A program made the position numbers and the translations under genes. The notes beneath the pieces were generated by a model, which saw only the letters and a program-made list of their open reading frames with translations, did no database searches and was not told where the DNA came from. 64,000 nucleotides of DNA from Massilia putida (GTDB lineage: Bacteria > Pseudomonadota > Gammaproteobacteria > Burkholderiales > Burkholderiaceae_D): the NCBI RefSeq assembly GCF_001941825.1, contig NZ_CP019038.1:5518001-5582000 (forward strand), read 5' to 3'. Shown in pieces: positions 16,485 to 42,369 of this stretch. Numbering within the stretch: position 1 is the first letter of the stretch; every line of letters begins with the position of its first letter.

Positions 16485-16551
16485 GATATGAAAAACGGTA
16501 TCGAAGTTGCGGAAAAATTGATTGGATCGTTCTCAATCGAGCGCCTACCAT
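16485..16551 (+). promoter_or_regulatory. Arabinose-regulon promoter module, copy 1 (TonB receptor)
   Basis: An 18-bp dyad GATATGAAAAACGGTATC (16485-16502) is followed after 12 bases by AAATTGATTGGA (16515-16526). TTGGAT at 16522-16527 serves as -35, with TACCAT 18 bases later as a possible -10. The same layout recurs at 23818 and 36591. The dyad sits where a LysR-type activator normally binds, about 20 bases or more upstream of the -35. The receptor gene starts 103 bases after the module. Confidence 0.72.
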
Positions 16552-16629
16552 TACCGTCAAGCATTCCAGTTCTGAAAGCGTCTCAGCCTTTCAGAAACAT
16601 AACAATACTTACAGAGAAATAGGAGACGT

Positions 16630-19269
16630 ATGGAACCCATCGCAGCGGGCCGGTTCGCGCCCGCCACCCGGACCTTCGCATTGCGCGGCACTGTCGCTGC
16701 ACTCATGGGCATCGGCCTGTTGACGAGCGTCTCCGTACGCGCCCAGGACGCCGGCGCCGCCCAAGAGGCCAACCAGGCCAACGGCAGCAACGTCGTGGTC
16801 GTCAGCGGCCAGCGCCAGGCGGCGCAGAGCGCCCAGACGATCAAGAAGAACGCCGAGCAGGTGCTCGATTCGATCGTCGCCGACGACATCGGCAAGTTCC
16901 CGGACAAGAACGTCGCCGAGATCCTCGGCCGCGTCACCGGCGTCCAGATCGTTCGCGAGAACGGCGAGGCCGGACGCATCGTCGTGCGCGGCCTCGGCGG
17001 CGTGACCACGCTCTTCAATGGCCGCGAAATGTTCACGGCCGCCGGCCGTTCGCTGTTCCTCGCCGACGTGCCCGTCTCGATGCTGCAGCGCGTGGACGTG
17101 TACAAATCGCAGGGCGCCGACATGGTCGAAGGGGGCACCTCGGGCGTCATCGACGTGCGCACGTTCCGGCCGTTCGACTTCAAGGGCGAGCAGATCGCCA
17201 TCAACACCCGTGCCGAGCACCGCGACAAGGCCGGCAAGACCGATCCGCAGGTCGGCGGCCTGTGGTCGAACCGCTGGAAGACCGGCATCGGCGAAGTCGG
17301 CCTGCTGGGCGGCCTGTCGTACCAGCGCGGCCGCTACCAGGACGAAGTGGCGTGGGCTGCCCCGGGCGTCAAATACACCCAGCCTGCCGGCGTGATCGGT
17401 ACGGACACCCTCGGCCGCGTGATGACCACTGGCGACCGCAAGCGCCTGGCCGCGAATTTCTCGGCCCAATGGCGCCCGAACCGCGACATGCAACTCTACG
17501 CGGAAGGTTTCGGCACCAAGATCGATCACGATTCGCAGAGCATCTTCTTCGTCGGCGGCCTGCCGATCAATAACCCGGCGTCGACCGTCACCACCTTCTC
17601 CGGCACGAATTACCTCGACACGATCAGCAACCCGAGTGTCAACACGTTCACGCTGAGCTCGACGCAGGCGCGCCGCGACTGGTCCAAGGGCAGCCAGGGC
17701 GCGATCGGCGGCATCTGGGACGTGACGTCGTCCGTGCGCGTGAGCTCGGAACTGGTGCGCACCGTGTCCACGTACCGCCAGTCGAACCCGATCCTGGACA
17801 CGATCTATAACGCACCGAAGGCGGTCAGCGGCAGCATCCGCGACGGCGGCGGCTTCCTGACCTACCCGGGCGTCAATATGACGGATCCGTCCAACTGGAC
17901 GATGTTCGCCTTCTTCGACAACCATAACCACTCGAACGGCAGCGCCAACGACTGGCGCGGCGACGTCACCTGGACCCCGGAAAACGACGGCGTGCTGAAG
18001 GAATTGACGGGGGGCGTGCGCTGGGCCCAGCGCGACGCATCGTATGCCCACGAGCTGAACAACTACTCGTCGGCGCCGGACCAGTGGGGCCCGAACGCGA
18101 TCAAGGTCACCAGCATCCCGGGCCTGTCGTGCACCAGCCCGGCCACTGGCGGCAACTACGGCATGAACCAGTTCTTCGCGCCGTGCTATGAATACCTGCT
18201 GAACAATACGGGCGTGGTCCGCAAGGCCATCACCGGCAGCAGCGCCGACAAGCCGGACGATCCTCTGTCGTACTACGCCGACCGCGAAACGACGTCGGCA
18301 CTGTACGGCAAGGCCAAGATCGGCTTCGACGCGTTTTCGGTGCCGGTCGAGGGCACGGTCGGCGTGCGTGTCGTGCATACCCGCCAGAGCATCGTCGGCA
18401 ACTCGCGTGACCTCAACAACGTGATCTCGCCGGTGGCCGTCAGCACCAGCAACACCGACGTGCTGCCGAGCTTGAACGTGCGCGCCAATTTCCGTGACGA
18501 CCTGGTCGGCCGTATCGTGGCCGGCAAGGCGATCGAGCGCGCCGGATTCGGCGACTTCAACCCGGGCCTGATCCTGTATCCGTCGACCAACACGACGATG
18601 GCGACGGGTACGGCCGGCAACCCGAACCTGAAGCCGCAGGAAGGCCGCAACGTCGATGTCGCCCTGGAGTGGTACTTCTCCAAGGACGGTTCCCTGACCG
18701 GTACGCTGTTCAACCACGACTTCAAGAACTTCCTGCGTCACAAGTCGACGACGGAGACCTACAACGGCGCCAACTATTTCGTCGACCGTCCGTACAACGC
18801 GGACACGGGCAAGCTGTACGGCTTCGAGGCGGCCTACCAGCAATTCTTCAGCAGCCTGCCGGGCTGGATGAGCGGACTGGGCATGCAGGCGAACTTCACC
18901 TTCATGAACGGGGGCCTGACCGAGCCGGATGGCACGCGCAACACGTTCCCGGGCATGTCCAAGAAAGCCTACAACCTGGTCGGCCTGTACGAGCGCGGCC
19001 CGTGGTCGGCGCGCGTGGCGTACAGCTGGCGCGACAAGTTCGTGGACACGTACAACTACCGCAACCTGGGTTTCAACCTGATCGTCGACCCGATCAAGAC
19101 CCTGGACGCGTCGGTCTCGTACAAGATCACGGAGCAGCTGACCGTGACGCTGGACGGCAGCAACCTGCTGAACGAGGCATACCACGACTACCACGGCGTG
19201 CCGGAACTGCCGCGTGACGTGCGCCGTTACGACCGCGTCGTGGGTCTGGCTCTGCGCTGGAAACATTGA
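16630..19269 (+). CDS. TonB-dependent receptor for arabinan-derived sugars
   Basis: An 879-residue outer-membrane receptor. It has a signal peptide ending near SVRA-Q and a TonB-box-like VVVVSG at about 56-61. The plug has the IGKFPDKNVAEILGRVTGVQI signature common in carbohydrate-type receptors of this lineage, with IVVRGLGG and DVYKSQGADMVEGGTSGVIDV. The barrel ends ALRWKH, so the usual terminal aromatic residue is not last. It is expected to import oligosaccharides. Its promoter carries the 42-bp module shared with the arabinonate dehydratase and ABC transporter genes, and a GPH symporter with cytoplasmic GH43 follows. Arabino-oligosaccharide is therefore the best substrate guess (inference). 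Confidence 0.9.
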   Translation: MEPIAAGRFAPATRTFALRGTVAALMGIGLLTSVSVRAQDAGAAQEANQANGSNVVVVSGQRQAAQSAQTIKKNAEQVLDSIVADDIGKFPDKNVAEILGRVTGVQIVRENGEAGRIVVRGLGGVTTLFNGREMFTAAGRSLFLADVPVSMLQRVDVYKSQGADMVEGGTSGVIDVRTFRPFDFKGEQIAINTRAEHRDKAGKTDPQVGGLWSNRWKTGIGEVGLLGGLSYQRGRYQDEVAWAAPGVKYTQPAGVIGTDTLGRVMTTGDRKRLAANFSAQWRPNRDMQLYAEGFGTKIDHDSQSIFFVGGLPINNPASTVTTFSGTNYLDTISNPSVNTFTLSSTQARRDWSKGSQGAIGGIWDVTSSVRVSSELVRTVSTYRQSNPILDTIYNAPKAVSGSIRDGGGFLTYPGVNMTDPSNWTMFAFFDNHNHSNGSANDWRGDVTWTPENDGVLKELTGGVRWAQRDASYAHELNNYSSAPDQWGPNAIKVTSIPGLSCTSPATGGNYGMNQFFAPCYEYLLNNTGVVRKAITGSSADKPDDPLSYYADRETTSALYGKAKIGFDAFSVPVEGTVGVRVVHTRQSIVGNSRDLNNVISPVAVSTSNTDVLPSLNVRANFRDDLVGRIVAGKAIERAGFGDFNPGLILYPSTNTTMATGTAGNPNLKPQEGRNVDVALEWYFSKDGSLTGTLFNHDFKNFLRHKSTTETYNGANYFVDRPYNADTGKLYGFEAAYQQFFSSLPGWMSGLGMQANFTFMNGGLTEPDGTRNTFPGMSKKAYNLVGLYERGPWSARVAYSWRDKFVDTYNYRNLGFNLIVDPIKTLDASVSYKITEQLTVTLDGSNLLNEAYHDYHGVPELPRDVRRYDRVVGLALRWKH

Positions 19270-19299
19270 TCACGGCGTCTGATCGATAGGCAATATTGA

Positions 19300-19330: not shown

Positions 19331-19353
19331 TGTTCGTTTGGAAGGAAGTCCGC

Positions 19354-20706
19354 ATGCAAACCCAGAAACTTTCCACTCTCGAAAAAGTGGGCTTCGGCGC
19401 CGGCGACATGGCGCTCAACGTGGTGATCTCGTCGATGATGCTGATTATCACCATCTTCTACACAGACATCTACGGCTTGAAGACCAGCGACCTGGCCTTG
19501 CTGTTCATGCTCGTCAAGTTCATCGGTGCGATGTCGGACTTCGCCACCGGCCAGCTGACCGACAGCTTTCTCTCACGCTGGGGCCGCTACCGGCCCTGGC
19601 TGCTGTTCCTGGCCGTGCCGTATGGCCTGTCCGTCTTTTTCGTGTTCACCACGCCGGACTGGAATTACGACGCCAAGCTCGTCTGGGCTTACTCCACGTA
19701 TATCGTGATGACGCTGATGACGTCGGGCGTGGGCGTCTCCTATATCTCGCTGCCCAGCGCGCTGACGGCGGACCCGCAGGAACGCCTGTCGGCCAACGGC
19801 TACCGCCTGTTCCTGGCCAAGATCGGCGCGTTCATGGTGACGATCGTCGTCCCCATCCTGGCCGAGCGCTGGGGCCATGGCAATCCGGCCGCCGGCTACC
19901 AGGCGGCGATGGCGCTGATGGCCTTGCTGGGCACCGTGCTGTTCCTGTTCTGCTTCTTCACGACGACCGAGCGCGTCGTCTACAAGGTCGCGCGCCAGCC
20001 GCTGGGCGAGCAGATCGCCGTGCTGGCGAAGAACGACCAGTGGCTGTACCTGGCCGGCGCCTGCGTGACGGGCACGATCGGCTACGTGATCCGCGGCTCC
20101 GTCGCCGCCTATTACGCCAAATACTATCTGCATGGCGACACGGGCGTCGTCTCCGCCTTCCTGTCGACGGGCGTGGCGGCGGCCATCATCGCGATGGTCA
20201 TCTCGACCTGGGTCACCAAGTTCTATTGCAAGGTCAAGCTGTTCCGCTACACGCAGCTGATCGTGGCCGTGCTGTCCGTGCTGATCTATTTCCTCGTCAA
20301 GCCAGGCGACACGATGCTGGCGTTCGTGCTGTATTTCGCACTGTCGCTGATCGTCGATCTGCATGCGCCCGTGTTCTGGTCCGCCATCGCCGAGACCATC
20401 GACTACGGCCAGCTGAAGACGGGCAAGCGCGTCTCCGGCTTCGCCTTCGGCGGCATCTCCATCGCGCAGAAGGTCGGCATGGGGATCGCCGGCGGCATGA
20501 TCGGCGTGCTGCTCACCTATTTCCAGTACCAGCCGAACCAGGAGCAGACGCCGCTGGCGCTGCAGGGCATCGCGCTGATGCTGTCCGTGATTCCGGGCTT
20601 CTTCCATTTCCTGATGGGGGCGCTGATGTTCAAGTACCGCATCAGCGATGAGTATTACTCGACCGTCAAGGAAGACCTGCGGGCGAGCCAGGTGGCGGCG
20701 GGCTGA
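19354..20706 (+). CDS. GPH-family sugar:cation symporter
   Basis: A 450-residue inner-membrane transporter with about 12 membrane segments, of the glycoside-pentoside-hexuronide:cation symporter family (MelB/XynB/YicJ type). Hallmarks are LSTLEKVGFGAGDMALNVV at the N terminus, DFATGQLTDSFLSRWGRYRPWLL after the second segment, and WSAIAETIDYGQLKTGKRVSG in the second half. ATG 19354 follows the ribosome site GGAAGGAAG. It lies between the TonB receptor and a cytoplasmic GH43. The three would form a route in which short arabino-oligosaccharides cross both membranes intact and are cut inside. Confidence 0.9.
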   Translation: MQTQKLSTLEKVGFGAGDMALNVVISSMMLIITIFYTDIYGLKTSDLALLFMLVKFIGAMSDFATGQLTDSFLSRWGRYRPWLLFLAVPYGLSVFFVFTTPDWNYDAKLVWAYSTYIVMTLMTSGVGVSYISLPSALTADPQERLSANGYRLFLAKIGAFMVTIVVPILAERWGHGNPAAGYQAAMALMALLGTVLFLFCFFTTTERVVYKVARQPLGEQIAVLAKNDQWLYLAGACVTGTIGYVIRGSVAAYYAKYYLHGDTGVVSAFLSTGVAAAIIAMVISTWVTKFYCKVKLFRYTQLIVAVLSVLIYFLVKPGDTMLAFVLYFALSLIVDLHAPVFWSAIAETIDYGQLKTGKRVSGFAFGGISIAQKVGMGIAGGMIGVLLTYFQYQPNQEQTPLALQGIALMLSVIPGFFHFLMGALMFKYRISDEYYSTVKEDLRASQVAAG

Positions 20707-20721
20707 CAACGAATGTTTGAA

Positions 20722-20859
20722 CGTCATTCCCGCGCAAGCCGGAATCCAAACACCGTTTCCGGCGAAGCAAATGCCGGCTGTGCGGCACACTGAATATGGA
20801 TCCCGCGGGGCCGCCCAGGATGCGCGGGGAGTCATTTCTGGCAGTGCCGGGAATGACGG
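20722..20859. repeat. REP-like intergenic element with inverted ends
   Basis: It begins CGTCATTCCCGCGCAAGCCG and ends GGGAATGACGG, the inverted counterpart, between the symporter stop and the cytoplasmic GH43 start. It belongs to the same family as the elements at 29289 and 41241. It may separate expression of the two genes. Confidence 0.7.
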
Positions 20860-20885
20860 TTTTTAATGTAACGATGAGAATAGCT

Positions 20886-21833
20886 ATGGAAACCGTTCTT
20901 ACACCCCTGATCGAACAACGCGCCGACCCGTACATCTACAAGCACACGGACGGCTATTACTACTTCACCGCCTCGGTCCCGCAATACGACCGCATCGAAC
21001 TGCGCCGCGCGAAAACCATCGCCGAACTGGCGACGGCACCGACCGTCGACGCGTGGATCAAGCCGGACACGGGCCCGTACAGCGAATTGATCTGGGCACC
21101 GGAACTGCATTTCAATATGGGCGCGTGGTACGTCTATTTCGCCGCCGCGCCGAGCCGCGAGATCAAGTATAAGCTGTTCCAGCACCGCATGTACGCGATC
21201 CGCAATACGAACGCCAATCCGCTCGAAGGCACGTGGGAATTCATGGGCCAGGTCGATACGGGCATCGACACGTTCTGCCTGGACGCGACCACGTTCAACC
21301 ACAACGGTGTGCTGTACTACCTGTGGGCGCAAAAGGACAACGAGATCGAAGGCAACTCGAACCTGTACATCGCGAACATGAAGACGCCGTGGCAGATCGA
21401 GGGCAAGCCGGTGCTGCTGTCCAAGCCGGAACACGACTGGGAAATCCGCGGATTCTGGGTCAACGAGGGACCGTCCGTCCTGCGCCGCAACGGCAAGATC
21501 TTCATCTCGTATTCCGCCAGCGCCACCGACGAAAACTACGCGATGGGCCTGCTGTGGGCGGACGAGAACGCGGACCTGCTCGATCCGGCGTCGTGGACAA
21601 AGTCGCGCGAGCCCGTGTTCCGTACATGCTACGATCACGGCATCTACGGACCCGGCCACAACAGCTTTACGTATGCTGAAGATGGCGATACCGTCATGCT
21701 CGTCTACCACGCGCGCACCTATACCGAAATCGTCGGCGATCCGCTGTGGAACCCGGACCGCCACACTTTCGTCAAACCGCTGCGCTGGGACGAGAACGGC
21801 ATGCCGGTATTCGGGCGGCCTTCCACCCTCTGA
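20886..21833 (+). CDS. Cytoplasmic GH43 arabinofuranosidase-type enzyme
   Basis: A 315-residue GH43 enzyme without a signal peptide, in contrast to the other GH43 proteins here. Base Asp14 (QRADPYIYKH), modulating Asp133 (CLDATTF) and acid Glu194 (VNEGPSV) are all present. The segment ELRRAKTIAEL near residue 40 and YGPGHNSFTY late in the chain match the small exo-acting alpha-L-arabinofuranosidase branch. ATG 20886 is preferred, with GAGAA six bases upstream; ATG 20874 is possible. Gene order (TonB receptor, symporter, this enzyme, aldose epimerase, lactonase) suggests that it releases L-arabinose from oligosaccharides imported by the symporter. Confidence 0.88.
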   Translation: METVLTPLIEQRADPYIYKHTDGYYYFTASVPQYDRIELRRAKTIAELATAPTVDAWIKPDTGPYSELIWAPELHFNMGAWYVYFAAAPSREIKYKLFQHRMYAIRNTNANPLEGTWEFMGQVDTGIDTFCLDATTFNHNGVLYYLWAQKDNEIEGNSNLYIANMKTPWQIEGKPVLLSKPEHDWEIRGFWVNEGPSVLRRNGKIFISYSASATDENYAMGLLWADENADLLDPASWTKSREPVFRTCYDHGIYGPGHNSFTYAEDGDTVMLVYHARTYTEIVGDPLWNPDRHTFVKPLRWDENGMPVFGRPSTL

Positions 21834-21845
21834 GGATATAACAAC

Positions 21846-22904
21846 GTGCAAAACGGAATCACCCAGGTGCCGTTCGGGACCTTGCCCGACGGCAGGCAAG
21901 TCGCCGAATACACGCTCAGGAACAATAACGGCATGGTCGTGAAGATCCTCGATTTCGGCGGGATCATCACCGAGATCCACGTCCCGGACCGCGACGGGGT
22001 CTTCGCCGACGTGGCGCTGGGCTTCGAGACGCTCGACCCCTATGTCAAGGACAGCCCGTACTTCGGCGCCCTGATCGGCCGCTACGGCAACCGCATTGGC
22101 AAAGGCCGCTTCACGCTGGACGGCAAGGAATACCAGCTGACGGTCAACAACGGCAACAACCACCTGCACGGCGGCGACCCGGGCTACGACAAGGTGCTGT
22201 GGACGGCGGCCATTGAAGGCGACAGCCTCGTGCTGCGCTACGACAGCCCGGACGGCGAGCAGGGCTACCCGGGCAACCTGGTGGCCACGGTCACGTACCG
22301 GCTGACGGACGACAACGAGATCGTCGTGCACTTTTCTGCCGTTACCGACCGGCCGACGCCCGTCAACCTCACGCAGCACAGCTATTTCAACCTGGCGGGC
22401 GCGGGGCAGGGCGACATCCTCGGCCACGAGATCACGATCGACGCCGACAAATTCGTGCCCATCGACGCGGAGTCGATCCCGTTCGGCGAACTGGCCCCCG
22501 TGACCGGCACGCCGTTCGACTTCCGCAAGCCGCGCACGATCGGCGAGCGCATCGGCCAGCCGGACAAGCAGCTGCGCCACGGCACCGGGTACGACCATTG
22601 CTGGGTGCTGAACAGGAAGCCGGGCGAGCGCGGCCTCAAGCGCGCGGTCCACGTGGTCGAACCGGCGTCGGGCCGCGTGCTCGAGTTGTTCACGCAGGAA
22701 CCGGGTGTGCAGTTCTACAGCGGCAACTTCCTCGACGGCTCGCTGCAGGGCAAGGGCCATCCGTGGATCTTCCGCAGCGGCTTTTGCATCGAGCCCGAGC
22801 ACTATCCCGATTCGCCCAACCAGCCGGCGTATCCGAACACGATCCTGCGCCCGGGCGAGGTCTATGAAACGGAGTCGCGCTTCCGCTTCTCGGTGGCGCA
22901 GTAA
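21846..22904 (+). CDS. galM: Aldose 1-epimerase
   Basis: A 352-residue mutarotase that interconverts alpha and beta anomers of free sugars. Active-site residues are visible: NNHLHGG and the catalytic histidine in TQHSYFNLAG, with the catalytic glutamate in LFTQEPGVQFYSGNFLDG. GTG 21846 is the start, 12 bases after the GH43 stop and preceded by GAGGATATAACAAC. Placed between the arabinofuranosidase and the lactonase, it probably supplies the L-arabinose anomer used by the 1-dehydrogenase. It could also serve galactose. Confidence 0.95.
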   Translation: MQNGITQVPFGTLPDGRQVAEYTLRNNNGMVVKILDFGGIITEIHVPDRDGVFADVALGFETLDPYVKDSPYFGALIGRYGNRIGKGRFTLDGKEYQLTVNNGNNHLHGGDPGYDKVLWTAAIEGDSLVLRYDSPDGEQGYPGNLVATVTYRLTDDNEIVVHFSAVTDRPTPVNLTQHSYFNLAGAGQGDILGHEITIDADKFVPIDAESIPFGELAPVTGTPFDFRKPRTIGERIGQPDKQLRHGTGYDHCWVLNRKPGERGLKRAVHVVEPASGRVLELFTQEPGVQFYSGNFLDGSLQGKGHPWIFRSGFCIEPEHYPDSPNQPAYPNTILRPGEVYETESRFRFSVAQ

Positions 22905-22919
22905 TCAGGAGAGCACTAC

Positions 22920-23804
22920 ATGATGGAACTGGCGGTGGACGGCCGGCATGTGCTGGGGGAGGGGATCATCTGGGACGACAAGGGCGCGCGCCTGTTCTGG
23001 ACCGACATCGAGCGCAGCGAGTTGTGGTCGCATGCGCCCGCGACGGGCGCGCTGCAGCGCTGGCCGCTGCCGGAGCGCCTGTGTTCGATGGCGCTGACGC
23101 ATGACGACGGCCGCCTGCTGCTGGGTCTCGCCTCGGGTCTCGCCTTCTTCGACCTTGCGAGCGGCGAACTCGATCGCATCTGCGACGTCGAAGCCGACCT
23201 GCCCACCACCCGCCTCAACGACGGCCGTGCCGACCGCCAGGGCCGCTTCGTCTTCGGCGTGTTCAACCAGGCCGAGAACCCGAAGGATCCGATCGGCGGG
23301 TTCTACCGCCTGAACCACGACTTGTCGCTGGAGCGCCTGCCGCTGGGCGGCGTCGCCATCGCCAACAGCATCTGCTTCAGCCCGGACGGCCGCACGATGT
23401 ATTACGCGGACTCGGGCACGCGTGAGATCCGTTGCTGCGATTACGACGTGGACACGGGCGCCGTGGCCAACCCGCGCCAGTTCGTGGCCGCCGACGCCGC
23501 CCCCGGCGATCCGGACGGCTCCACGATCGACGCCGACGGCTACCTGTGGAGCACGCGCTGGGGCGCCGGCCAGGTGGTACGCTTCGCGCCGGACGGCCGC
23601 ATCGACCGCGTATTGACGCTGCCGGCGCCGCAGCCGACCTGTCCCGCGTTCGGCGGTGCAAGGTTGGACGTGTTGTATGTCACGTCGGCAACGGTCGGAC
23701 TGCGCGCCGGCCAGCTGGCGGATGCGCCGAAATCCGGCGGTGTATTTGCGCAAACCCTGCCGATGCGCGGTCTGACGGAGGTGCGGTTCGCTGGCTGGCG
23801 GTGA
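22920..23804 (+). CDS. SMP-30-family lactonase, probable L-arabinolactonase
   Basis: A 294-residue six-bladed beta-propeller of the SMP-30/gluconolactonase/LRE family. It hydrolyses the sugar lactone formed by the 1-dehydrogenase to the open acid, here L-arabinonate. Metal and substrate residues are recognisable: Glu in VLGEGIIWD, Asn in LNDGRADRQGRF, the central Asn in IANSICFSPDGRTMYYADS, and Asp in GDPDGSTIDADGYLW. Start at 22920 (ATG ATG) follows AGGAGAGC. It is the last gene before the promoter of the arabinonate dehydratase, whose substrate it makes. Confidence 0.9.
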   Translation: MMELAVDGRHVLGEGIIWDDKGARLFWTDIERSELWSHAPATGALQRWPLPERLCSMALTHDDGRLLLGLASGLAFFDLASGELDRICDVEADLPTTRLNDGRADRQGRFVFGVFNQAENPKDPIGGFYRLNHDLSLERLPLGGVAIANSICFSPDGRTMYYADSGTREIRCCDYDVDTGAVANPRQFVAADAAPGDPDGSTIDADGYLWSTRWGAGQVVRFAPDGRIDRVLTLPAPQPTCPAFGGARLDVLYVTSATVGLRAGQLADAPKSGGVFAQTLPMRGLTEVRFAGWR

Positions 23805-23817: not shown

Positions 23818-23884
23818 GATGTCGATAACGATATCGATTGCTGTTAAAAATTGATTGGAAAGTTATCTGATCGGCCTTTAGACT
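23818..23884 (+). promoter_or_regulatory. Arabinose-regulon promoter module, copy 2 (arabinonate dehydratase)
   Basis: The dyad GATGTCGATAACGATATC (23818-23835) is followed by AAATTGATTGGA (23848-23859), with the same spacing as copies 1 and 3. TTGGAA (23855-23860) and TAGACT (23879-23884) are 18 bases apart, as in copy 1. The overlapping ACATCGATGTC (23813-23823) also matches the core of the LacI-type operators at 7736. Confidence 0.75.
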
Positions 23885-25771: not shown

Positions 25772-25819
25772 TGTTCATTGCCTGCATCGCGGCAAACGCC
25801 GCGCGAAGGAGACACAAAC

Positions 25820-28383: not shown

Positions 28384-28394
28384 GCACGAAAGAC

Positions 28395-28423
28395 GGCGGC
28401 GCCGGGCCGTTCCCGGCGCCGCC
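28395..28423 (+). terminator. Perfect 12-bp hairpin between two pathway genes
   Basis: GGCGGCGCCGGG and CCCGGCGCCGCC pair perfectly around a five-base loop. No T run follows (TACAATAAGATTTT), so it is either a weak terminator or an RNA-stability element that sets lower expression of the following dehydrogenase. Confidence 0.65.
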
Positions 28424-28448
28424 TACAATAAGATTTTAGGAGACGACG

Positions 28449-30979: not shown

Positions 30980-30982
30980 TCC

Positions 30983-32533: not shown

Positions 32534-32548
32534 TCGAAAGGATGAAGC

Positions 32549-33577: not shown

Positions 33578-35937
33578 CACTGACCCGCATCGCCGCGCTG
33601 TTGTTCACCCTGGGCGCGACGTGCGCCCAGGCCGCCGATCTGTTCCCGCTGCAGGACGTGCGCCTGGGCCCGAGCCCCTTCCTCGACGCCCAGACGACGG
33701 ACCTGAACTACCTGATGGCGATGGAGCCGGACCGCCTGCTGGCGCCGTTCCTGCGCGAAGCGGGGCTCACGCCGAAGCAGCCCAGCTACGGCAACTGGGA
33801 ATCGTCGGGCCTCGACGGCCACATGGGCGGGCACTACCTGTCGGCGCTGGCGTTGATGGTTGCGTCGACCGGCGATGCGGAGGTCAAGAAGCGTCTCGAC
33901 TACTTCGTCGCGGAGCTGAAGCGCGCGCAGCAGGCCAACAAGGACGATGAGATGCGCGGCTATGTGGGCGGCGTGCCCGGCGGCCGCGCCGCGTGGCGCG
34001 ACGTCGCCGCGGGCAAGCTCCATGCCGACAATTTTTCCGTCAACGGCAAATGGGTCCCGTGGTACAACCTGCACAAGATCTACGCGGGCCTGCGCGACGC
34101 CTACCGCTATGCCGGCAACGAGGATGCGAAGGCGATGCTGATTGCCATGGCCGACTGGGCGCTGCGCCTGACGAGCCATTTGACGGACGAGCAGATGCAG
34201 CAGATGCTGAAGGCCGAACATGGCGGCATGAACGAGGTGCTGGCCGACGTCGCCCAGATGACCGGGGACTCGCGTTACATGGACCTCGCGCTGAAGTTCT
34301 CGCACCAGGCCATCCTGCAGCCGCTCGAAAAGCACGAGGACAAGCTCACGGGCCTGCACGCCAACACCCAGATCCCGAAGGTCATCGGCTTCAAGCGCAT
34401 CGGCGAACTCACGGGCCGCAAGGACATGGCGGACGCCGCCGCGTTCTTCTGGCAGACCGTCGTCGGCCACCGCACGGTGGCCATCGGCGGCAACAGCGTC
34501 AGGGAGCACTTCCATGACGACAAGGACTTCAGCCCGATGATCGACGAGGTCGAGGGGCCGGAAACCTGCAACACGTATAACATGCTGAAGCTGACGGAGA
34601 TGCTGTTCGAGACGTCGGACAAGGCCAGCTACGCGGACTATTACGAGCGCGCGCTGTACAACCACATCCTCGCCTCCGAACATCCTGGCACGGGCGGCTT
34701 CGTCTACTTCACGCCGATGCGTCCGAATCACTACCGCGTGTATTCACAGGTGGACCAGGCCATGTGGTGCTGCGTCGGCTCCGGCATCGAGAGCCATGCC
34801 AAATATGGCGAATTCATCTACGCGCACGAAGGCGATGTCTTGTTCGTCAACCTGTTCATTCCGTCCACCCTCAACTGGCGCGAGAAGAACGTCAAGATCA
34901 CGCAGGCGAACAACTTCCCGGACCAGGCCAGCACGCGCATCACCATCGACGGCGATGCAAAGTTCGCGCTGAAGATCCGCTATCCGGCCTGGGTCGCGCC
35001 GGGCAAGCTCGCGCTGAAGGTGAACGGCAAACTCGTCAAGGTCGATGCGAAGCCGGGCGGCTACGTCAGCGTCGATCGCGCGTGGAAAAAGGGCGACCGC
35101 GTCGACGTGAGCCTGCCGATGTCGATGCGCCTGGAGCAGATGCCGGACAAGTCGAATTACTACGCGGTGCTGTACGGCCCCGTCGTGCTGGCGGCGAAGA
35201 CGAACCCGTTCCCGACCGAGCACCTGAACTTCCTCGCGGACGATTCGCGCATGGGCCACAGCCCGTCCGGCCAGGTCTGCCCACTGGAGGCGGCGCCGAC
35301 CTTCGTCTCGGACAGCAAGGATTTCACGCGCCGCTTCAAGCCCGTGAAGGGCAAGGCGCTGACGTTCACGGCACCCGGCGTCGTGCAGGGCGGCGCGGGG
35401 GCGTCGACGGAGTTCATTCCGTTCTTCCGCCTGCACGACTCGCGCTACATGATCTACTGGCAGCAGAGCACCCCGGCCGAATTCGCGCGCGTGAGGCAGG
35501 AGAACGCGGAGAAGGAAGCCGAGCGCCTGGCGCTGGACGCGCAGACCATCGACCAGGTGGCGCCGGGCGAACAGCAGCCGGAATCGGACCACGGCTTCCA
35601 GGGCGAGGGCGCGGACGCGGGCCTCAACGGTGGCCGCCACTGGCGCCATGCGAGCAAGTGGTTCAGCTACCAGCTCAACGACCCGAAGCACGAGGCGAAG
35701 GCGTTGCGCCTGACGTTCGCGCGCGCGGACGCGGGCCGCAAGTTCGACATCGTCGTGGCGGGCCAGCGCATCGCGGAAGTCGAACTGCCGTCCGGCGAGG
35801 CGCAGGAATTCTATACGCGCGACTTCGCGCTGCCGCCCGCGCTGGTGCAGGGTGCGAACGGCAAGCTGGAAGTGAAGTTCGTCGCGAAGGAAGGGTCCAT
35901 GGCGGGCGGATTGTACGGACTCCGGCTGTTGCGTTGA
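33574..35937 (+). CDS. Secreted GH127/GH146 beta-L-arabinofuranosidase
   Basis: A 787-residue exported enzyme of the former DUF1680 group. Signal peptide is about residues 1-20 (GATCAQA-A). The (alpha/alpha)6 domain carries the zinc-thiolate active site: Glu330 and Cys332 in GPETCNTYNML, and Cys399-Cys400 in MWCCVGSGIESHAKYGE. These correspond to the Glu/Cys/Cys/Cys set of bifidobacterial HypBA1, where one cysteine is the nucleophile (family knowledge). It should release terminal beta-L-arabinofuranose, found in extensins and some pectin side chains. The long C-terminal beta region (about 480-787) points to GH146 or a related clade. The start overlaps the preceding stop (ATGA). Confidence 0.92.
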   Translation: MTLTRIAALLFTLGATCAQAADLFPLQDVRLGPSPFLDAQTTDLNYLMAMEPDRLLAPFLREAGLTPKQPSYGNWESSGLDGHMGGHYLSALALMVASTGDAEVKKRLDYFVAELKRAQQANKDDEMRGYVGGVPGGRAAWRDVAAGKLHADNFSVNGKWVPWYNLHKIYAGLRDAYRYAGNEDAKAMLIAMADWALRLTSHLTDEQMQQMLKAEHGGMNEVLADVAQMTGDSRYMDLALKFSHQAILQPLEKHEDKLTGLHANTQIPKVIGFKRIGELTGRKDMADAAAFFWQTVVGHRTVAIGGNSVREHFHDDKDFSPMIDEVEGPETCNTYNMLKLTEMLFETSDKASYADYYERALYNHILASEHPGTGGFVYFTPMRPNHYRVYSQVDQAMWCCVGSGIESHAKYGEFIYAHEGDVLFVNLFIPSTLNWREKNVKITQANNFPDQASTRITIDGDAKFALKIRYPAWVAPGKLALKVNGKLVKVDAKPGGYVSVDRAWKKGDRVDVSLPMSMRLEQMPDKSNYYAVLYGPVVLAAKTNPFPTEHLNFLADDSRMGHSPSGQVCPLEAAPTFVSDSKDFTRRFKPVKGKALTFTAPGVVQGGAGASTEFIPFFRLHDSRYMIYWQQSTPAEFARVRQENAEKEAERLALDAQTIDQVAPGEQQPESDHGFQGEGADAGLNGGRHWRHASKWFSYQLNDPKHEAKALRLTFARADAGRKFDIVVAGQRIAEVELPSGEAQEFYTRDFALPPALVQGANGKLEVKFVAKEGSMAGGLYGLRLLR

Positions 35938-36032: not shown

Positions 36033-36041
36033 TCTCAGGCG

Positions 36042-36590: not shown

Positions 36591-36658
36591 GATGTCAAAA
36601 TGGGTATGGATTCCGTCAAAAAAATGATTGGATGAATATGTCAGTTCTGTCATAGTAT
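36591..36658 (+). promoter_or_regulatory. Arabinose-regulon promoter module, copy 3 (ABC transporter)
   Basis: The dyad GATGTCAAAATGGGTATG (36591-36608) and AAAATGATTGGA (36621-36632) have the same 42-base extent as copies 1 and 2. TTGGAT at 36628-36633 is the -35. TAGTAT at 36653-36658 (or the overlapping ATAGTA) is a likely -10. The binding-protein gene starts 55 bases after the module. Confidence 0.75.
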
Positions 36659-36687: not shown

Positions 36688-37650
36688 ATGACCGTCACCC
36701 GCAGAACCCTCCTGGGCGTTGCCGCCGCCGTCGCGTGCGCAACCGCCATCCCGGCATTTGCCGCTAAACCCCTCACGATCGGCTTCTCGCAGGTCGGCGC
36801 CGAAAGCGAGTGGCGCACCGCGAACACCGCCTCGATCAAGGACGCCGCCAAGAAGGCCGGCGTCAACCTGAAATTCGCCGACGCCCAGCAACAGCAGCAG
36901 AACCAGGTCAAGGCCATCCGTTCGTTCATCGCCCAGCGTGTCGACGTGATCGCGTTCTCGCCCGTCGTGGAAACCGGTTGGGAGACCGTGCTGCGCGAAG
37001 CGAAGAACGCAAAAATCCCCGTGATCCTGACCGATCGCGCCGTCAAGGTCAGCGATCCGTCGCTGTACGTCAGCTTCATCGGTTCCGACTTCGTGGAAGA
37101 AGGCCGCCGCGCCGGACGCTGGCTGCTCGACTACGACAAGAAGATCGGCGGCAAGCCGCTGAACATCGTCGAACTGCAGGGCACGACCGGTGCCGCGCCG
37201 GCGATCGACCGCAGGACCGGATTCGCCGAAGTCATCGCGGAGAATCCGAAGCTGAAGATCATCCGCTCGCAGACGGGCGACTTCACCCGCGCCAAGGGCA
37301 AGGAAGTCATGGAAGCGTTCCTGAAGTCCGAAGGCAAGAACATCAACGTGCTGTTCGCGCACAACGACGACATGGCCATCGGCGCGATCCAGGCCATCGA
37401 GGAAGCGGGCCTGAAGCCGGGCAAGGACATCATCATCATCTCGATCGACGGCGTGAAAGGCGCGTTCGAGGCCATGAAGGCCGGGAAGCTGAATGTCACG
37501 GTCGAGTGCAATCCGCTGCTCGGCCCGACCCTGATCCAGACCGCGCAGGACGTCGTGGCCGGCAAGCCGGTCCCCAAGCGCATCGTCGTGAACGAGGGGG
37601 TGTTCCCGGCTGAGGTGGCGGCGAAGGAACTCCCGAACCGCAAATACTGA
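36688..37650 (+). CDS. Periplasmic sugar-binding protein (YtfQ type)
   Basis: A 320-residue ABC-transporter binding protein with a signal peptide (about residues 1-26, ending IPAFA) and a Peripla_BP_4 fold. LTIGFSQVGAESEWRTANTASIKDAA, FSPVVETGWETVLREAKNA, IPVILTDRAV and LFAHNDDMAIGAIQAIEEAGLKPGKD closely follow E. coli YtfQ, which binds galactofuranose. Related systems in other bacteria bind L-arabinofuranose. Given the arabinan locus and shared promoter module, L-arabinose in furanose form is the likely ligand (inference). ATG 36688 was chosen because it begins a proper signal peptide, with GGAGA 10 bases upstream. Confidence 0.9.
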   Translation: MTVTRRTLLGVAAAVACATAIPAFAAKPLTIGFSQVGAESEWRTANTASIKDAAKKAGVNLKFADAQQQQQNQVKAIRSFIAQRVDVIAFSPVVETGWETVLREAKNAKIPVILTDRAVKVSDPSLYVSFIGSDFVEEGRRAGRWLLDYDKKIGGKPLNIVELQGTTGAAPAIDRRTGFAEVIAENPKLKIIRSQTGDFTRAKGKEVMEAFLKSEGKNINVLFAHNDDMAIGAIQAIEEAGLKPGKDIIIISIDGVKGAFEAMKAGKLNVTVECNPLLGPTLIQTAQDVVAGKPVPKRIVVNEGVFPAEVAAKELPNRKY

Positions 37651-37661
37651 TCGGATCGAGC

Positions 37662-39179
37662 ATGGTCGATTCGAAACATCCGGTGCTGGAAGTCACCGGC
37701 ATCCATAAAGCCTTCCCCGGTGTGAAGGCGCTGTCCGACGCCGGACTGCGCCTGTTCCCCGGCGAAGTCCACACGCTGATGGGCCAGAACGGCGCGGGCA
37801 AGTCCACGCTGATCAAGGTCCTCACCGGCGTCTACCAGCCGGACGCCGGCAGTATCGTGCTGGAGGGCCGGGCCATCCACCCGCGCTCCACGCAGGATGC
37901 GCAGAACCTGGGCATCAGCACCGTCTACCAGGAAGTCAATCTGTGCCCGAACCTGTCGGTCGCGGAAAACATTTTCATCGGACGTTATCCGCGCCGTTTC
38001 GGCATGGTCGACTGGCGTTCGATGCGCAAAGAGGCCGCCGCGCTGCTGGAGCGCCTGCAGATCCACGTCGACGTCAGCAAGCCGCTCGCCGACTATCCGC
38101 TCGCGATCCAGCAGATGGTCGCCATCGCGCGCGCGCTGAACACGGAATCGCGCGTGCTGATCCTCGACGAGCCCACGTCCAGCCTGGACGAGGCGGAAGT
38201 GCAGATGCTGTTCTCGGTACTGCGCCGCCTGCGCGAAGAAGGGATGGCGATCCTGTTCGTCACGCACTTCCTCGACCAGACCTATGCGATCTCGGACCGC
38301 ATCACGGTGATGCGCAACGGCGAGCGCGAAGGCGAGTACGCCTGCGCGGATCTGTCGCGCCTCGCGCTCGTCAACAAGATGATCGGCGCGCCGGCCGACG
38401 CGGAACACGCGGCCGGGACGGCGACGCAGGGCGAAGCCAACGAACACGGCGACGTCTTCCTGCGCGCCCGCGGCATCGCGCGCAAGGGCGTCTTGTCGCC
38501 GGTCGACCTGGAAATCCGCCGCGGCGAATTGCTGGGCCTTGCCGGCCTGCTGGGCTCCGGCCGCACGGAAACCGCGCGCCTGCTGTTCGGCGCGGACAAG
38601 GCGGACGCCGGCAGCTTCGACATCGACGGCAAGCAGGTCAGCTTCTCGAACCCGCGCGACGCGATTCGCGAGGGCATCGGCTTCTGCTCGGAAGACCGCA
38701 AGCACGAAGGCGCGATCCTCGCGCTGTCCGTGCGCGAAAACCTGATCCTCGCGCTGCAGGCGAGACAGGGCATCTTCCGCGCCATCCCCTTCAAGCGCCA
38801 GCAGCAGCTGGCGCTGGACTACGTCAAGTGGCTGGGCATCAAGACGGCCAGCATCGAGACGCCGATCGGCACGCTCTCCGGCGGCAACCAGCAGAAGGTC
38901 TTGCTGGCGCGCTGGCTCGCGACCGATCCGCGCCTGATGATTCTCGACGAACCGACGCGCGGCATCGACGTGCGCGCCAAGCAGGAAATCATGGATTACG
39001 TCAGCAACCTGTGCCGCAAAGGCATGTCCATCCTCTTCATCTCGTCCGAGCTGCCGGAAGTGTTGCGCGTGTCGGACCGCATGGTCGTCATGCGCGACCG
39101 CAAGGCGTGCGGCGAATACCGGCGCGGTGAGCTCGACGAGACCACCGTGCTGCACGTGATCGCGGGAGAGACGGCATGA
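37662..39179 (+). CDS. Sugar ABC transporter ATPase (YtfR type)
   Basis: A 505-residue ATPase with two fused ABC domains, as in the RbsA/AraG/YtfR class. Domain 1 has Walker A GQNGAGKST and Walker B VLILDEPTSSLD. Domain 2 has the degenerate P-loop GLLGSGRTE expected in this class, signature LSGGNQQKVLLARW, and Walker B LMILDEPTRGIDV. It powers the two membrane proteins encoded next. It starts 11 bases after the binding-protein stop and overlaps the following permease start by four bases (ATGA), so the four-gene system is one operon. Confidence 0.95.
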   Translation: MVDSKHPVLEVTGIHKAFPGVKALSDAGLRLFPGEVHTLMGQNGAGKSTLIKVLTGVYQPDAGSIVLEGRAIHPRSTQDAQNLGISTVYQEVNLCPNLSVAENIFIGRYPRRFGMVDWRSMRKEAAALLERLQIHVDVSKPLADYPLAIQQMVAIARALNTESRVLILDEPTSSLDEAEVQMLFSVLRRLREEGMAILFVTHFLDQTYAISDRITVMRNGEREGEYACADLSRLALVNKMIGAPADAEHAAGTATQGEANEHGDVFLRARGIARKGVLSPVDLEIRRGELLGLAGLLGSGRTETARLLFGADKADAGSFDIDGKQVSFSNPRDAIREGIGFCSEDRKHEGAILALSVRENLILALQARQGIFRAIPFKRQQQLALDYVKWLGIKTASIETPIGTLSGGNQQKVLLARWLATDPRLMILDEPTRGIDVRAKQEIMDYVSNLCRKGMSILFISSELPEVLRVSDRMVVMRDRKACGEYRRGELDETTVLHVIAGETA

Positions 39180-40210
39180 GCACGACCGGCGCTACCGTCA
39201 AACCGGCCGCGCAGGCGGGAGCAGCGCGCGCGGCAATGCTGCAGCATCCGCTCGTGCGACCGCTCGGCGCGCTCGTCGCGCTGCTGCTCGTCGACGCATT
39301 CCTCGTGCCCGGCTTCTTCCACCTGGAAGTCAAGGAAGGGCACCTGTACGGCGCGATCATCGACATCCTCAACCGCGCGGCGCCGCTGATGCTGGCGGCG
39401 CTCGGCATGACCCTCGTCATCGCCACGCGCGGCATCGACATCTCGGTCGGCGCGGTCGTCGCGCTGTCCGGCACCGTGTCCGCGATGCTCATCGGCGGCG
39501 ACACGCCGTCCACGTCGATGGCGGTCGCGCTGGCGGCCTCGCTGGGCGTCGCGCTGCTGTGCGGCCTGTGGAACGGCGTGCTCGTGGCCGGCATCAAGCT
39601 GCAGCCGATCGTCGCCACCTTGATCCTGATGGTCGCGGGGCGCGGCCTCGCGCAGCTGCTGACGGACGGCCAGATCGTCACCGTGTACTACCAGCCGTTC
39701 TTCTTCCTGGGCGGCGGTTATCTCGCCGGCCTGCCGTTCTCGCTGTTCGTCGTGACGGCCGTGTTCGCGGCGACGCTGCTGCTGGTGAAGAAGACGGCGC
39801 TCGGCCTGTTCATCCAGGCCGTCGGCATCAATCCGGTGGCGGCACGCCTCGCGGGCCTGTGCACGGCGACCCTGATCACCTTCGTGTACGTGTTCTGCAG
39901 CGCCTGCGCGGGCCTGGCCGGCATGCTGATCACGTCGAACATCAAGAGCGCGGACGCGAACAACGCCGGCCTGCTGCTGGAGCTGGACGCGATCCTCGCC
40001 GTCACGCTCGGCGGCACGTCGCTGGCCGGCGGTAAATTCAGCCTGGTGGGCAGCATGATCGGCGCGCTGATCATCCAGACGCTCACCTACACGATCTACT
40101 CGCTGGGCGTGCCGCCCGAAGTGAACATGGTCGTCAAGTCCATTGTCGTCTTCGTCGTCTGCATCTCGCAGTCGAGCGAATTCAAGAACATCCTGCGGAG
40201 GTCCGCATGA
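39176..40210 (+). CDS. Sugar ABC transporter permease 1 (YtfT type)
   Basis: A 344-residue membrane protein of the RbsC/AraH/YtfT permease family with about 8-10 membrane segments. The cytosolic coupling loop IGGTSLAGG is seen here as VTLGGTSLAGGKFSL. The conserved GMTLVIATRGIDISVGAVVALSG region lies near residue 75-95. It differs from the second permease in having a longer hydrophilic N terminus (about 20 residues). Two distinct permeases encoded in tandem are characteristic of the YtfQRT-YjfF arrangement, whereas ribose and arabinose AraFGH systems have one permease gene. It overlaps both neighbours by four bases. Confidence 0.93.
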   Translation: MSTTGATVKPAAQAGAARAAMLQHPLVRPLGALVALLLVDAFLVPGFFHLEVKEGHLYGAIIDILNRAAPLMLAALGMTLVIATRGIDISVGAVVALSGTVSAMLIGGDTPSTSMAVALAASLGVALLCGLWNGVLVAGIKLQPIVATLILMVAGRGLAQLLTDGQIVTVYYQPFFFLGGGYLAGLPFSLFVVTAVFAATLLLVKKTALGLFIQAVGINPVAARLAGLCTATLITFVYVFCSACAGLAGMLITSNIKSADANNAGLLLELDAILAVTLGGTSLAGGKFSLVGSMIGALIIQTLTYTIYSLGVPPEVNMVVKSIVVFVVCISQSSEFKNILRRSA

Positions 40211-41190
40211 GCGCGGTCGCAACTGGTACCCGCGGCGTGACGAGTGCGCCGTGGTTTACGTCCCTGGTCACCGTGGTCCTGCTGGTGGCGATGCTGGGCA
40301 TCGGCGGGTCGGTGTACCCGGGCTTCCTGTCGCTGCAGGTGATCTTCAACCTCCTGATCGACAACGCGTTCCTGCTCGTGATCGCGGTGGGCATGGGCTT
40401 CGTGATCCTCTCGGGCGGCATCGACCTGTCGGTCGGCTCCGTGCTGGCGCTGTCGACGATGATCTCGGCCTGGCTGCTGCAGCACGCGCATTGGCCGCCG
40501 GCCGCCGTCATCCTGCTCGTGCTGCTGCTGGGCGCGTGCTTCGGCGGCGCGATGGGCACGATCATCCACCTGTTCAAGCTGCAGCCGTTCATCGTCACCT
40601 TGGCCGGCATGTTCCTGGCGCGCGGCCTGTGCTACCTGATCAGCGTCGAATCGATCACGATCGACGATCCGGTGTTCACGGCGATGTCGCAGACCCAGGT
40701 GCCGATCCTGGGCGGCTTCCTGTCGCCGGGCGCGATCATCGCCCTCGTCGTGCTGCTGGTCGCCATCTGGCTCGCGCACTTCACCGCGTTCGGCCGCGCC
40801 GTGTACGCCGTCGGCGGCAACGAGCAGTCGGCCGCGATGATGGGCCTGAACGTGGGCCGCACGAAGGTCCTCGTGTACGCGCTGTCGGGCTTCTGCGCAT
40901 CGCTGGGCGGCGTGCTGTTCGCCTTCTACATGTTGTCCGGCTACGGCCTGCACGGGCAGGGCACGGAACTCGACGCCATCGCGGCCGTCGTCATCGGCGG
41001 CACGCTGCTCACGGGCGGCTACGGCTATATCGCGGGCGCGCTGTCGGGCGTGCTGGTGCTGGGCGCCATCCAGACGCTGATCGCCTTCGACGGCACGCTC
41101 AGCTCGTGGTGGACCAAGATCGTCATCGGAGCGCTGCTGTTCGTCTTCTGCGTCGTGCAGAGGGTGATGGGTGGGCGTTCGAAACAATAA
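40207..41190 (+). CDS. Sugar ABC transporter permease 2 (YjfF type)
   Basis: A 327-residue permease of the same family, last gene of the ABC operon. GMGFVILSGGIDLSVGSVLALSTM and VIGGTLLTGGYGYIAGAL mark the family, and FGRAVYAVGGNEQSAAMMGLNV is the usual cytoplasmic loop. It probably pairs with the YtfT-type protein as a heterodimer. It overlaps the previous gene by four bases. A repeat-rich gap of 180 bases then separates it from the secreted GH43 gene. Confidence 0.93.
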   Translation: MSAVATGTRGVTSAPWFTSLVTVVLLVAMLGIGGSVYPGFLSLQVIFNLLIDNAFLLVIAVGMGFVILSGGIDLSVGSVLALSTMISAWLLQHAHWPPAAVILLVLLLGACFGGAMGTIIHLFKLQPFIVTLAGMFLARGLCYLISVESITIDDPVFTAMSQTQVPILGGFLSPGAIIALVVLLVAIWLAHFTAFGRAVYAVGGNEQSAAMMGLNVGRTKVLVYALSGFCASLGGVLFAFYMLSGYGLHGQGTELDAIAAVVIGGTLLTGGYGYIAGALSGVLVLGAIQTLIAFDGTLSSWWTKIVIGALLFVFCVVQRVMGGRSKQ

Positions 41191-41240
41191 CGGGTCGCGT
41201 CAATATCAACTCGGTATGGAGGAATGGTGCCAGTGGCACT

Positions 41241-41315
41241 ATTCCCGCGTGCGCGGAATGACGGCACGTTCGGACGCTGACAATAGCACGTCATTCCCGC
41301 GCAAGCGGAATCCAT
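41241..41315. repeat. REP-like repeats after the ABC operon
   Basis: ATTCCCGCGTGCGCGGAAT with ATGACGG (41241-41264) and, 25 bases on, CGTCATTCCCGCGCAAGCGG (41289 onward) with AATCCAT are two units of the dispersed family in divergent orientation. They fill most of the gap before the secreted GH43 gene and may cap the ABC-operon transcript. Confidence 0.75.
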
Positions 41316-41370
41316 AAGCCGTACCCGGCGCCGCCAACGCCGGTGATCCACAAAAGACAACGGAGACTAC

Positions 41371-42324
41371 ATGCTCAAACCCACGCTCGGCGCGGCCCTG
41401 GTCGCGACGGCGGCGCTCGCCCACGCCGCCAATCCCATCACCAGCAAGATCTTCACGGCCGATCCCGCGGCCCTCGTCGACAACGGCCGCGTGTACCTGT
41501 ACGTCGGCCGCGACGAGGCGCCCGTCGGCGGCAAGGATTACCTGATGAACGAATGGCGTGTGTTTTCCAGCTGCGACATGCAGCACTGGACCGCGCACCC
41601 GGACGGCGTGCCGTTCTCCACGTTCAAATGGGCCGCCCGGGACGCGTGGGCCAGCGACATCACGAAGCGCAACGGCAAGTACTACCTGTACGTGACGGTC
41701 GAACACAAGACGATCCCCGGCAAGGCGATCGGCGTCGCGGTGTCGGACAGCCCGACGGGTCCGTTCGTCGACGCGCGCGGCTCGGCCCTGATCACGAACG
41801 ACATGACGCACGAGACCGAGATCAGCTGGGACGACATCGACCCGGCGATCTTCGTCGACGACGACGGCCAGGCCTATCTGTACTGGGGCAACACGGTCAT
41901 GAAGTACGCGAAGCTGAAGCCCAACATGACGGAGCTGGACGGCCCGATCCACACGGTGGGCCTGGAAGCGTTCACGGAAGCGTCGTACCTGCACAAGCAC
42001 GCCGGCAAATACTACCTGTCGTACTCGCGCAAGTTCCCGGAAGAGACCGTATACATGACGGGCCCGACGGCCACCGGTCCGTGGTCGTACGGCGGCGTGA
42101 TCATGGAGCAGAACACGAACGTGAAGACGATCCACCACGCGATCGTCGATTTCAACGGCAAGTCCTATATTTTTTATCACAACGGCAAGCTGCCGACGGG
42201 CGGCGAATTCCGCCGTTCGGTCGCCGTCGAGGAATTGCACTACGGTCCGGACGGCAAGATCCTGCCCGTGGCGCAGACGGCAGAAGGCCCCGCCGCGAAT
42301 CCGTCCACTGCGTGCAAGCGATGA
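41371..42324 (+). CDS. Secreted GH43 enzyme, probable alpha-L-arabinofuranosidase
   Basis: A 317-residue exported GH43 protein with a short signal peptide (about 1-19, ending ALAHA). Catalytic residues are Asp31 (FTADPAALV), Asp157 (DIDPAIFVD) and Glu203 (AFTEASYLHK). The acid residue sits in FTEASYL where the arabinanases nearby have IEGPF/IEGAY, so it belongs to a different GH43 subfamily, closer to exo-acting arabinofuranosidases or xylosidases. EETVYMTGPTATGPWSYGGVIME is typical of that group. It starts after GGAGACTAC. It may trim side chains in the periplasm and release the furanose sugar taken up by the ABC system next to it. Confidence 0.88.
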   Translation: MLKPTLGAALVATAALAHAANPITSKIFTADPAALVDNGRVYLYVGRDEAPVGGKDYLMNEWRVFSSCDMQHWTAHPDGVPFSTFKWAARDAWASDITKRNGKYYLYVTVEHKTIPGKAIGVAVSDSPTGPFVDARGSALITNDMTHETEISWDDIDPAIFVDDDGQAYLYWGNTVMKYAKLKPNMTELDGPIHTVGLEAFTEASYLHKHAGKYYLSYSRKFPEETVYMTGPTATGPWSYGGVIMEQNTNVKTIHHAIVDFNGKSYIFYHNGKLPTGGEFRRSVAVEELHYGPDGKILPVAQTAEGPAANPSTACKR

Positions 42325-42351
42325 CAGTTTTGCATAAATTTCCGTTAAAGC

Positions 42352-42369
42352 AATATCGATAATGATATG
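42352..42369 (+). promoter_or_regulatory. Candidate autoregulatory LysR site
   Basis: AATATCGATAATGATATG matches the 18-bp dyad of the three arabinose-regulon promoters: five-base arms separated by eight bases, and closest to the copy at 23818. It ends nine bases before the ATG of the LysR gene, where a bound regulator could hinder its own transcription. Confidence 0.62.

Follow-up and report, generated by a model that had tools for sequence, protein, structure and literature searches.

The closest described relatives of the system considered here are those built around GbpR, which controls chvE when sugars are present (PMC4086400) and which is named together with SbpA, GguA and GguB for Azospirillum brasilense (PMC4042000); a gbpR-sbpA-araC cluster is annotated in Roseobacter litoralis (PMC3141670). 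Regulators of arabinose use include proteins of the AraC, LacI and GntR types (PMC10204090) and an AraR of the NrtR type (PMC4666351), and in Pseudomonas a LysR gene lies beside the xylose (Weimberg) genes (PMC10107873). The locus that concerns us belongs to Massilia putida and was analysed as a window of 64,000 nucleotides (C3:5518001-5582000 of the 7.5 Mb genome; positions below are those of the window unless given as genome positions). Three copies of a 43-base block in this window very probably represent, main points included, the operator-promoters of a single regulon under the GbpR-type LysR-family protein encoded at 42378. The genes of the window we take to make up an oxidative arabinose pathway together with uptake and debranching enzymes, a pathway assignment that draws on established knowledge.

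The blocks, or modules, begin at 16485, 23818 and 36591, exactly where an earlier sequence-only reading of this DNA had placed them, and each contains a dyad, an A-rich gap of 16 bases and TGATTGGAW. The dyad pattern RATRTN8RTATS occurs four times without mismatch in the window (at the three modules and at 42352, always on the plus strand), against a mean of 0.22 in 100 shuffles, none of which reached four. Every one of the three exact occurrences of TGATTGGAW (0.45 expected) falls inside a module, and the complete 43-base pattern, three mismatches being allowed, was found three times in the window and never in the shuffles. Copies 1 and 3 are identical at 29 of 42 positions, as had been counted, copies 1 and 2 also at 29, and copies 2 and 3 at 30. 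Eighteen bases after TTGGAW stand TACCAT, TAGACT and ATAGTA, respectively (with TAGTAT at 19 in the third), and the genes that begin 102, 92 and 54 bases downstream of the -35 are those for a TonB receptor, a dehydratase and the YtfQ-like component of an ABC transporter, which the modules are predicted to drive, as that reading had it. The dyad consensus, GATAYC-N6-GRTATC, is symmetric as T-N12-A, and its centre computes to about -64.5 if the presumed start is put seven bases past a -10 at 18-base spacing.

The four exact copies of the dyad are real, but by itself the dyad is unspecific: with one mismatch the window holds 15 sites against 8.9 expected, a number reached by 3 of 100 shuffles, and the strict form is found genome-wide at 14 + 7 places versus 1 + 1 for a reversed control (palindromic places counted twice), many of them in coding sequence. 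The dyad alone was rejected as a signal for these reasons; the specific signal is the dyad plus the fixed 16-base gap plus ATTGG.

An independent test used a matrix built wholly from other genomes, from the ytfQ upstream regions of 72 loci (62 distinct sites, effective number 29.9). It gives the ytfQ, TonB and dehydratase modules of the window 56.5, 55.1 and 46.5 bits, respectively, with the next-best window site at -15.4; the ytfQ module has close relatives among the training sites, while the other two are independent of them. Its columns describe the dyad (GATAtC-NAAA-N2-gaTATC), AAAAA, ATTGGAT and TANNAT, along with a TAT placed ten bases downstream of where ATTGGAT starts. Conservation is among the strongest in the columns of the A-tract, ATTGGAT and TANNAT, which would suit a plain sigma-70-type promoter in which the A-tract serves as an UP-like element and the dyad is incidental. 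We consider that explanation highly improbable: dyad columns 2-4 and 15-17 hold 1.6-2.2 bits at a fixed distance, the dyad recurs before genes as unrelated as those for TonB receptors, dehydratase, YtfQ, GH3 and GH27-like enzymes, porin and ChvE, and the LysR gene is present in nearly all genomes with the module, as detailed below. Nor, when checked, did the matrix hit promoters of related genomes at random.

A pattern scan of the Massilia putida genome found eight exact modules, then one place with a single mismatch and seven with two mismatches. All eight stand 54-269 bases before uptake, pathway or glycoside-hydrolase genes, and the five outside the window (Table 1) all precede TonB-receptor or glycoside-hydrolase genes. 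The arabinose regulon read from the locus is thus supported by the three modules there but is not confined to it. Ten distinct places of this genome lie at one to two mismatches, and three of them, none counted among the eight, were inspected by eye: genome position 4969940 (L178), before a GH43 gene with a ricin-type lectin domain (26.9 bits), and 4982954 on the minus strand (L194), before a TonB receptor (50.0 bits), both look real, and 6628068, which has no gene start ahead of it, does not. The last (G000:C3:6628068, L005:16068-16110 on the plus strand) scores 14.3 bits and lies between a leftward gene from 15901, GH43-like by eye, and a gene ending at 16112. The TonB receptor with the module at genome position 895344 is divergent from a run (L115:10467-11378 and beyond) that looks, by eye, like 5-keto-4-deoxyglucarate dehydratase, aldehyde dehydrogenase, an MFS transporter and an SMP-30 gene.

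Conservation of the module was followed through 80 loci with an orthologous LysR gene, the locus protein itself being 98-99% identical to the LysR of several Massilia species. A ytfQ match is present at 73 of them (including L051, where it is partial), 72 with a readable upstream region, and the module is found at all 72, with 0, 1, 2, 3 or 4 mismatches at 12, 34, 15, 10 and 1 loci; only 0.5% of shuffles had a match with up to three. Of 54 distinct exact modules in the retrieved loci, 33 precede genes matching targets of the window or of the same genome (22 ytfQ, 5 TonB, 4 dehydratase, and the GH27-like and GH3 genes), four a chvE-like gene (74-81% identity), one a GH39 gene, seven a porin (two by Pfam, the others by eye from the protein start) and two an aldo/keto-reductase-like gene (by eye); the loci were mostly fetched by pattern or by LysR, and are therefore not a random sample of promoters. 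The dehydratase orthologue is preceded by the module in other genomes also (L172, L174, L176, L196, L197). Among 300 genomes of the order, six match the strict pattern, which misses diverged forms of the module; two of these are among the 290 outside the family, and in both the match precedes a dehydratase 81-82% identical to that of the window.

Several further sites were seen in this survey. In genus g28, a module-like block at L149 lies before an unidentified ORF starting MKRRDFLGYAVVTPLLAACG, with a site of the same type in another genome of the genus (L198), and near-identical exact matches at L147, L151 and L152 fall inside one conserved coding frame and are probably not promoters. Beside LysR homologues of another family of the same class, sites of the form GATATCAAAA...CATTGG...GGTTAT (L229, L230, L232 and L234; -5.9 to -10.4) possibly represent a diverged module.

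The question of which protein reads the module was approached through 195 family genomes, of which 51 have the exact module and none the reversed control pattern; an orthologue of the locus LysR (E <= 1e-90) is present in 70, among them 50 of the 51, and in 20 of the 144 without an exact module (Fisher p = 7e-29, a value overstated because related genomes are not independent). The lone exception, G102, has a single, chance-like site. Of the 90 modules in LysR-bearing genomes, 61 lie no more than 27 kb from the LysR gene and 14 at least 122 kb from it, with none between these two distances; the other 15 are on different contigs. In genus g26 the module adjoins a divergently oriented LysR gene in 10 of 11 LysR-bearing genomes, with hand-measured distances of 43-109 bases in six of them. 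Since the pathway gene AraD1 is shared with LysR in 67 of the 70 LysR genomes, co-occurrence by itself does not distinguish LysR from the pathway as a whole; AraD1 accordingly failed as a control, with just four genomes holding AraD1 only and three LysR only, none of the seven with an exact module.

This confounding leaves room for another DNA-binding protein as the reader of the module, either an unlinked regulator or the 41% identical LysR paralogue at C3:812621, an explanation that we rate as quite improbable. The paralogue, which with the locus LysR made up the regulators compared genome-wide for a link to the module, was rejected as regulator: it is absent from 38 of the 51 module genomes, five genomes with the paralogue and no locus LysR are without module, and its own 20 kb holds none (best score -17.0). 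Against any such protein, the half-sites of the module also lie over the -10 of the LysR gene itself, and LysR homologues adjoin the module in other classes; these two features, along with the divergent arrangement in g26, point to the locus LysR, which on such comparative grounds very likely controls the modules. The paralogue (G000:C3:812621-813529, minus strand, L113) is the only other close LysR of the genome and adjoins an SDR gene and one that, by eye, resembles the gene of a sugar-acid kinase (DgoK-like).

Outside the family, the association of LysR homologue and module continues. In Comamonadaceae and on Burkholderiaceae plasmids the gene of a LysR homologue and either ytfQ or the dehydratase gene are divergently oriented, and the top matrix site lies in the gap between them (23.4, 10.8 and 12.9). 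In Azospirillum argentinense and A. oryzae the homologue stands between an SMP-30 operon and chvE, and the top three sites are the chvE, ytfQ and SMP-30 promoters (21.0, 18.3 and 4.3 in the former; 21.9, 7.4 and 3.7 in the latter), with shuffle maxima at -18.9 or lower. The Rhizobium LysR was also used to query a sample of the phylum, in which 43 of 398 genomes gave a match and 30 loci were kept. Nineteen of these 30 loci have their top site above 0, versus 2 of 150 shuffles. At 12 of the 19 chvE-linked loci such a site lies upstream of chvE in the right direction, and three more score -0.8 to -3.3; at chvE-linked L211, L224 and L231 the top site either does not point at chvE or sits inside it. 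Among the 11 loci without chvE linkage, L225 and L235 have a site before an AraD1 gene, L236 (a genome of the family) and L237 score high before unidentified genes, and seven fall below 0. The alignment of the phylum-sample loci, ATTTGACAGTTATG, keeps the TAT found in the spacer in the family of the window. The locus LysR is 41% identical to the chvE-adjacent LysR of A. oryzae and 35% to that of Rhizobium leguminosarum, a homology that backs the GbpR-type label already given to it and suggests that the locus regulator belongs to a GbpR-type system. No chvE was identified among the window genes; in genus g26 and in Azospirillum it is part of the same cluster.

The LysR gene (Pfam HTH_1 at 73.3 bits and LysR_substrate at 118.9, both over cut-off) has a dyad of its own, with 42369 as its last base and eight bases between it and the ATG at 42378. 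This dyad lacks both the A-tract and TGATTGGA, and overlaps a -10-like TATGAT; it is therefore a different kind of site. Over the -10 of LysR, 26-27 bases before the ATG, a dyad with at most one mismatch is found in 53 of 80 orthologues, and in 63 of the 80 (L006-L085; ATG chosen to favour the spacing) a TATNNT ends exactly six bases before an in-frame ATG, so that transcription would begin at the A of that ATG. A Shine-Dalgarno-like sequence precedes LysR in 2 of the 80. These features suggest that the LysR mRNA may be leaderless, and the dyad over the -10 probably reflects autorepression rather than a fourth activated promoter. Control of all four sites by LysR, as the sequence-only reading proposed, agrees with the co-occurrence, the linkage, the half-sites and the chvE-linked homologues, with the fourth site to be read, in all likelihood, as self-repression.

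The usual geometry of a LysR activator comprises a recognition dyad near -65, an activation site at -35 and a poor -35 sequence. By this analogy, one LysR dimer would occupy the upstream dyad, which is centred some 64 bases ahead of the presumed start, and the second dimer of a tetramer would lie over the A-tract and ATTGGAT round the -35, where the conserved TAT is a possible second half-site. On binding a sugar or an early pathway intermediate, the tetramer would shift its grip by the -35 and recruit RNA polymerase to the non-consensus TTGGAW/TANNNT promoter. Thus induced would be the TonB receptor, the arabinonate dehydratase pathway and the arabinofuranosidases that go with it, the Ytf-type ABC transporter and the unlinked TonB receptors and glycoside hydrolases; at its own gene, where the dyad covers the -10, LysR is proposed to repress itself. 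A LysR acting mainly as a repressor released by sugar would account for that last site, and LysR proteins are capable of both modes; the target dyads, centred near -64 of the presumed start and well upstream of a weak TTGGAW -35, fit instead the usual activator geometry, and we regard general repression as unlikely. Activation by LysR is the likely mode, judging from the position of the sites, and the inducer is somewhat more probably than otherwise arabinose or an early intermediate of the pathway.

A number of observations weigh against this interpretation. Binding, activation and inducer are deduced from comparison of sequences, and the module dyad is T-N12-A, not the T-N11-A of the usual LysR box, which is common among LysR proteins and not universal. 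The presence of LysR, so closely tied to that of AraD1, does not separate regulator from pathway, and 20 genomes carry LysR and no exact module. Seven of the 54 exact modules precede nothing nameable, three of them inside a coding frame, and the GH39 module is weak because its 5.2 bits barely exceed the background, which reaches 2.0 in the scanned stretches of the same genome. In the matrix scan the Azospirillum thermophilum locus L204 is without module (best -22.6), L212, L227, L228 and L233 of the phylum sample are without any site above -5, and the chvE site of R. leguminosarum scores just 2.1 (0.8 on the other strand).

The features of the locus are collected in Table 1, where the three gene runs, putative operons, are defined by strand and order. 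The YtfQ and YtfR matches of the third run (391.6 and 672.9 bits, plus Pfam) are below their cut-offs of 510 and 850.

Table 1. Modules and genes of the Massilia putida window, followed by the exact modules elsewhere in the genome (genome positions; scores are bits of the matrix from other genomes)
Feature	Position	Strand	Description
Module 1	16485..16527	+	dyad GATATGAAAAACGGTATC at 16485-16502; 16-base A-rich gap; TGATTGGAT with -35 TTGGAT at 16522-16527; -10 TACCAT 18 bases on; matrix 55.1
TonB-dependent receptor	16630..19269	+	first gene after module 1; NCBIfam TIGR01782 604.9 bits (cut-off 310); Pfam plug and barrel
Genes 3' of the TonB receptor	19354..23804	+	GPH-family symporter 19354-20706; GH43 20856-21833; aldose 1-epimerase 21846-22904; SMP-30 lactonase 22920-23804
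Module 2	23818..23860	+	dyad GATGTCGATAACGATATC; gap; TGATTGGAA; -10 TAGACT; matrix 46.5
IlvD/Edd dehydratase	23953..25695	+	L-arabinonate dehydratase-like; PRK13016 840.5 bits, slightly below cut-off 882
Rest of second gene run, first genes	25778..29216	+	AraD1/GguC-family 25778-26812 (GguC equivalog 528 bits, cut-off 340); aldehyde dehydrogenase 26848-28383; SDR 28449-29216
Rest of second gene run, further genes	29426..35937	+	alpha-L-arabinofuranosidase 29426-30979; two GH43 30983-33577; GH127 beta-L-arabinofuranosidase ~33574-35937 (Pfam)
Module 3	36591..36633	+	dyad GATGTCAAAATGGGTATG; gap; TGATTGGAT; -10 ATAGTA/TAGTAT; matrix 56.5 (close relatives of this promoter in training set)
Third gene run	36688..42324	+	YtfQ-like binding protein 36688-37650; YtfR-like ATPase 37662-39179; permeases 39176-40210 and 40207-41190; GH43 41371-42324
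Fourth dyad, AATATCGATAATGATATG	42352..42369	+	overlaps -10-like TATGAT (42366-42371) of LysR gene; probable autoregulatory operator
LysR-family regulator	42378..43319	+	GbpR-type, 313 aa; Pfam HTH_1 and LysR_substrate; 80 orthologous loci; putative regulator of all four sites
Module outside window	769535		before GH27-like alpha-galactosidase-family gene; matrix 18.5
Module outside window	895344	-	before TonB receptor; matrix 28.1
Module outside window	2504572		before GH3 gene; matrix 32.1
Module outside window	4704466	-	before GH39 gene; matrix 5.2
Module outside window	6622305		before TonB receptor; matrix 48.1

These observations make it fairly probable that the block is an ancestral GbpR operator-promoter, its 16-base spacing kept in Alpha- and Betaproteobacteria (and perhaps degraded in some Gammaproteobacteria), which in Massilia spread from the promoters of sugar uptake and oxidative arabinose use to unlinked TonB receptors and GH3, GH27-like, GH39 and GH43 genes. 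A regulator of pentose uptake would in this way have become a chromosome-wide regulator of hemicellulose use, its own gene self-repressing and possibly leaderless. That one lineage has the block ahead of a TonB receptor and another has it ahead of a porin is a clear case of regulon growth. A base-resolution matrix of the target promoters makes GbpR binding, inducer and regulon directly testable, and predicts a hemicellulose regulon for Massilia, Janthinobacterium, Duganella and their relatives; it also provides ready-made parts for building a promoter that responds to pentoses in non-model Betaproteobacteria.

A literature search, with most subscription papers outside its coverage, gave no description of this regulon or of a GbpR operator, and the searched portion of a survey of proteobacterial regulons (PMC5343134) had no match for arabinose. 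The mechanism is of a known kind. AraC of E. coli, the LacI- and GntR-type AraR proteins and the NrtR-type AraR do the same job in arabinose use and belong to unrelated families, the protein here being HTH_1 plus LysR_substrate. The closest NCBIfam model of the locus LysR is that of PcaQ, the LysR regulator responding to protocatechuate (TIGR02424); membership was rejected, the score of 181.4 bits being far under the cut-off of 303.8, and no pca genes are among those identified around LysR. The Pseudomonas LysR of the Weimberg genes, likened by description only, is similar in lying at an oxidative pentose cluster, and the available part of its description gives no binding site. Nearest of all are GbpR-chvE of Agrobacterium and gbpR-sbpA-gguAB of A. 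brasilense, a likeness that is drawn through the chvE-adjoining LysR proteins of Azospirillum and Rhizobium, with Agrobacterium GbpR itself outside the comparison, and through the module-like sites at chvE in those genera. In contrast to GbpR-chvE, the Massilia system has no chvE among the identified window genes; its targets are a TonB receptor, a Ytf transporter, the oxidative arabinose pathway and many glycoside hydrolases, with sites distributed over the whole chromosome.

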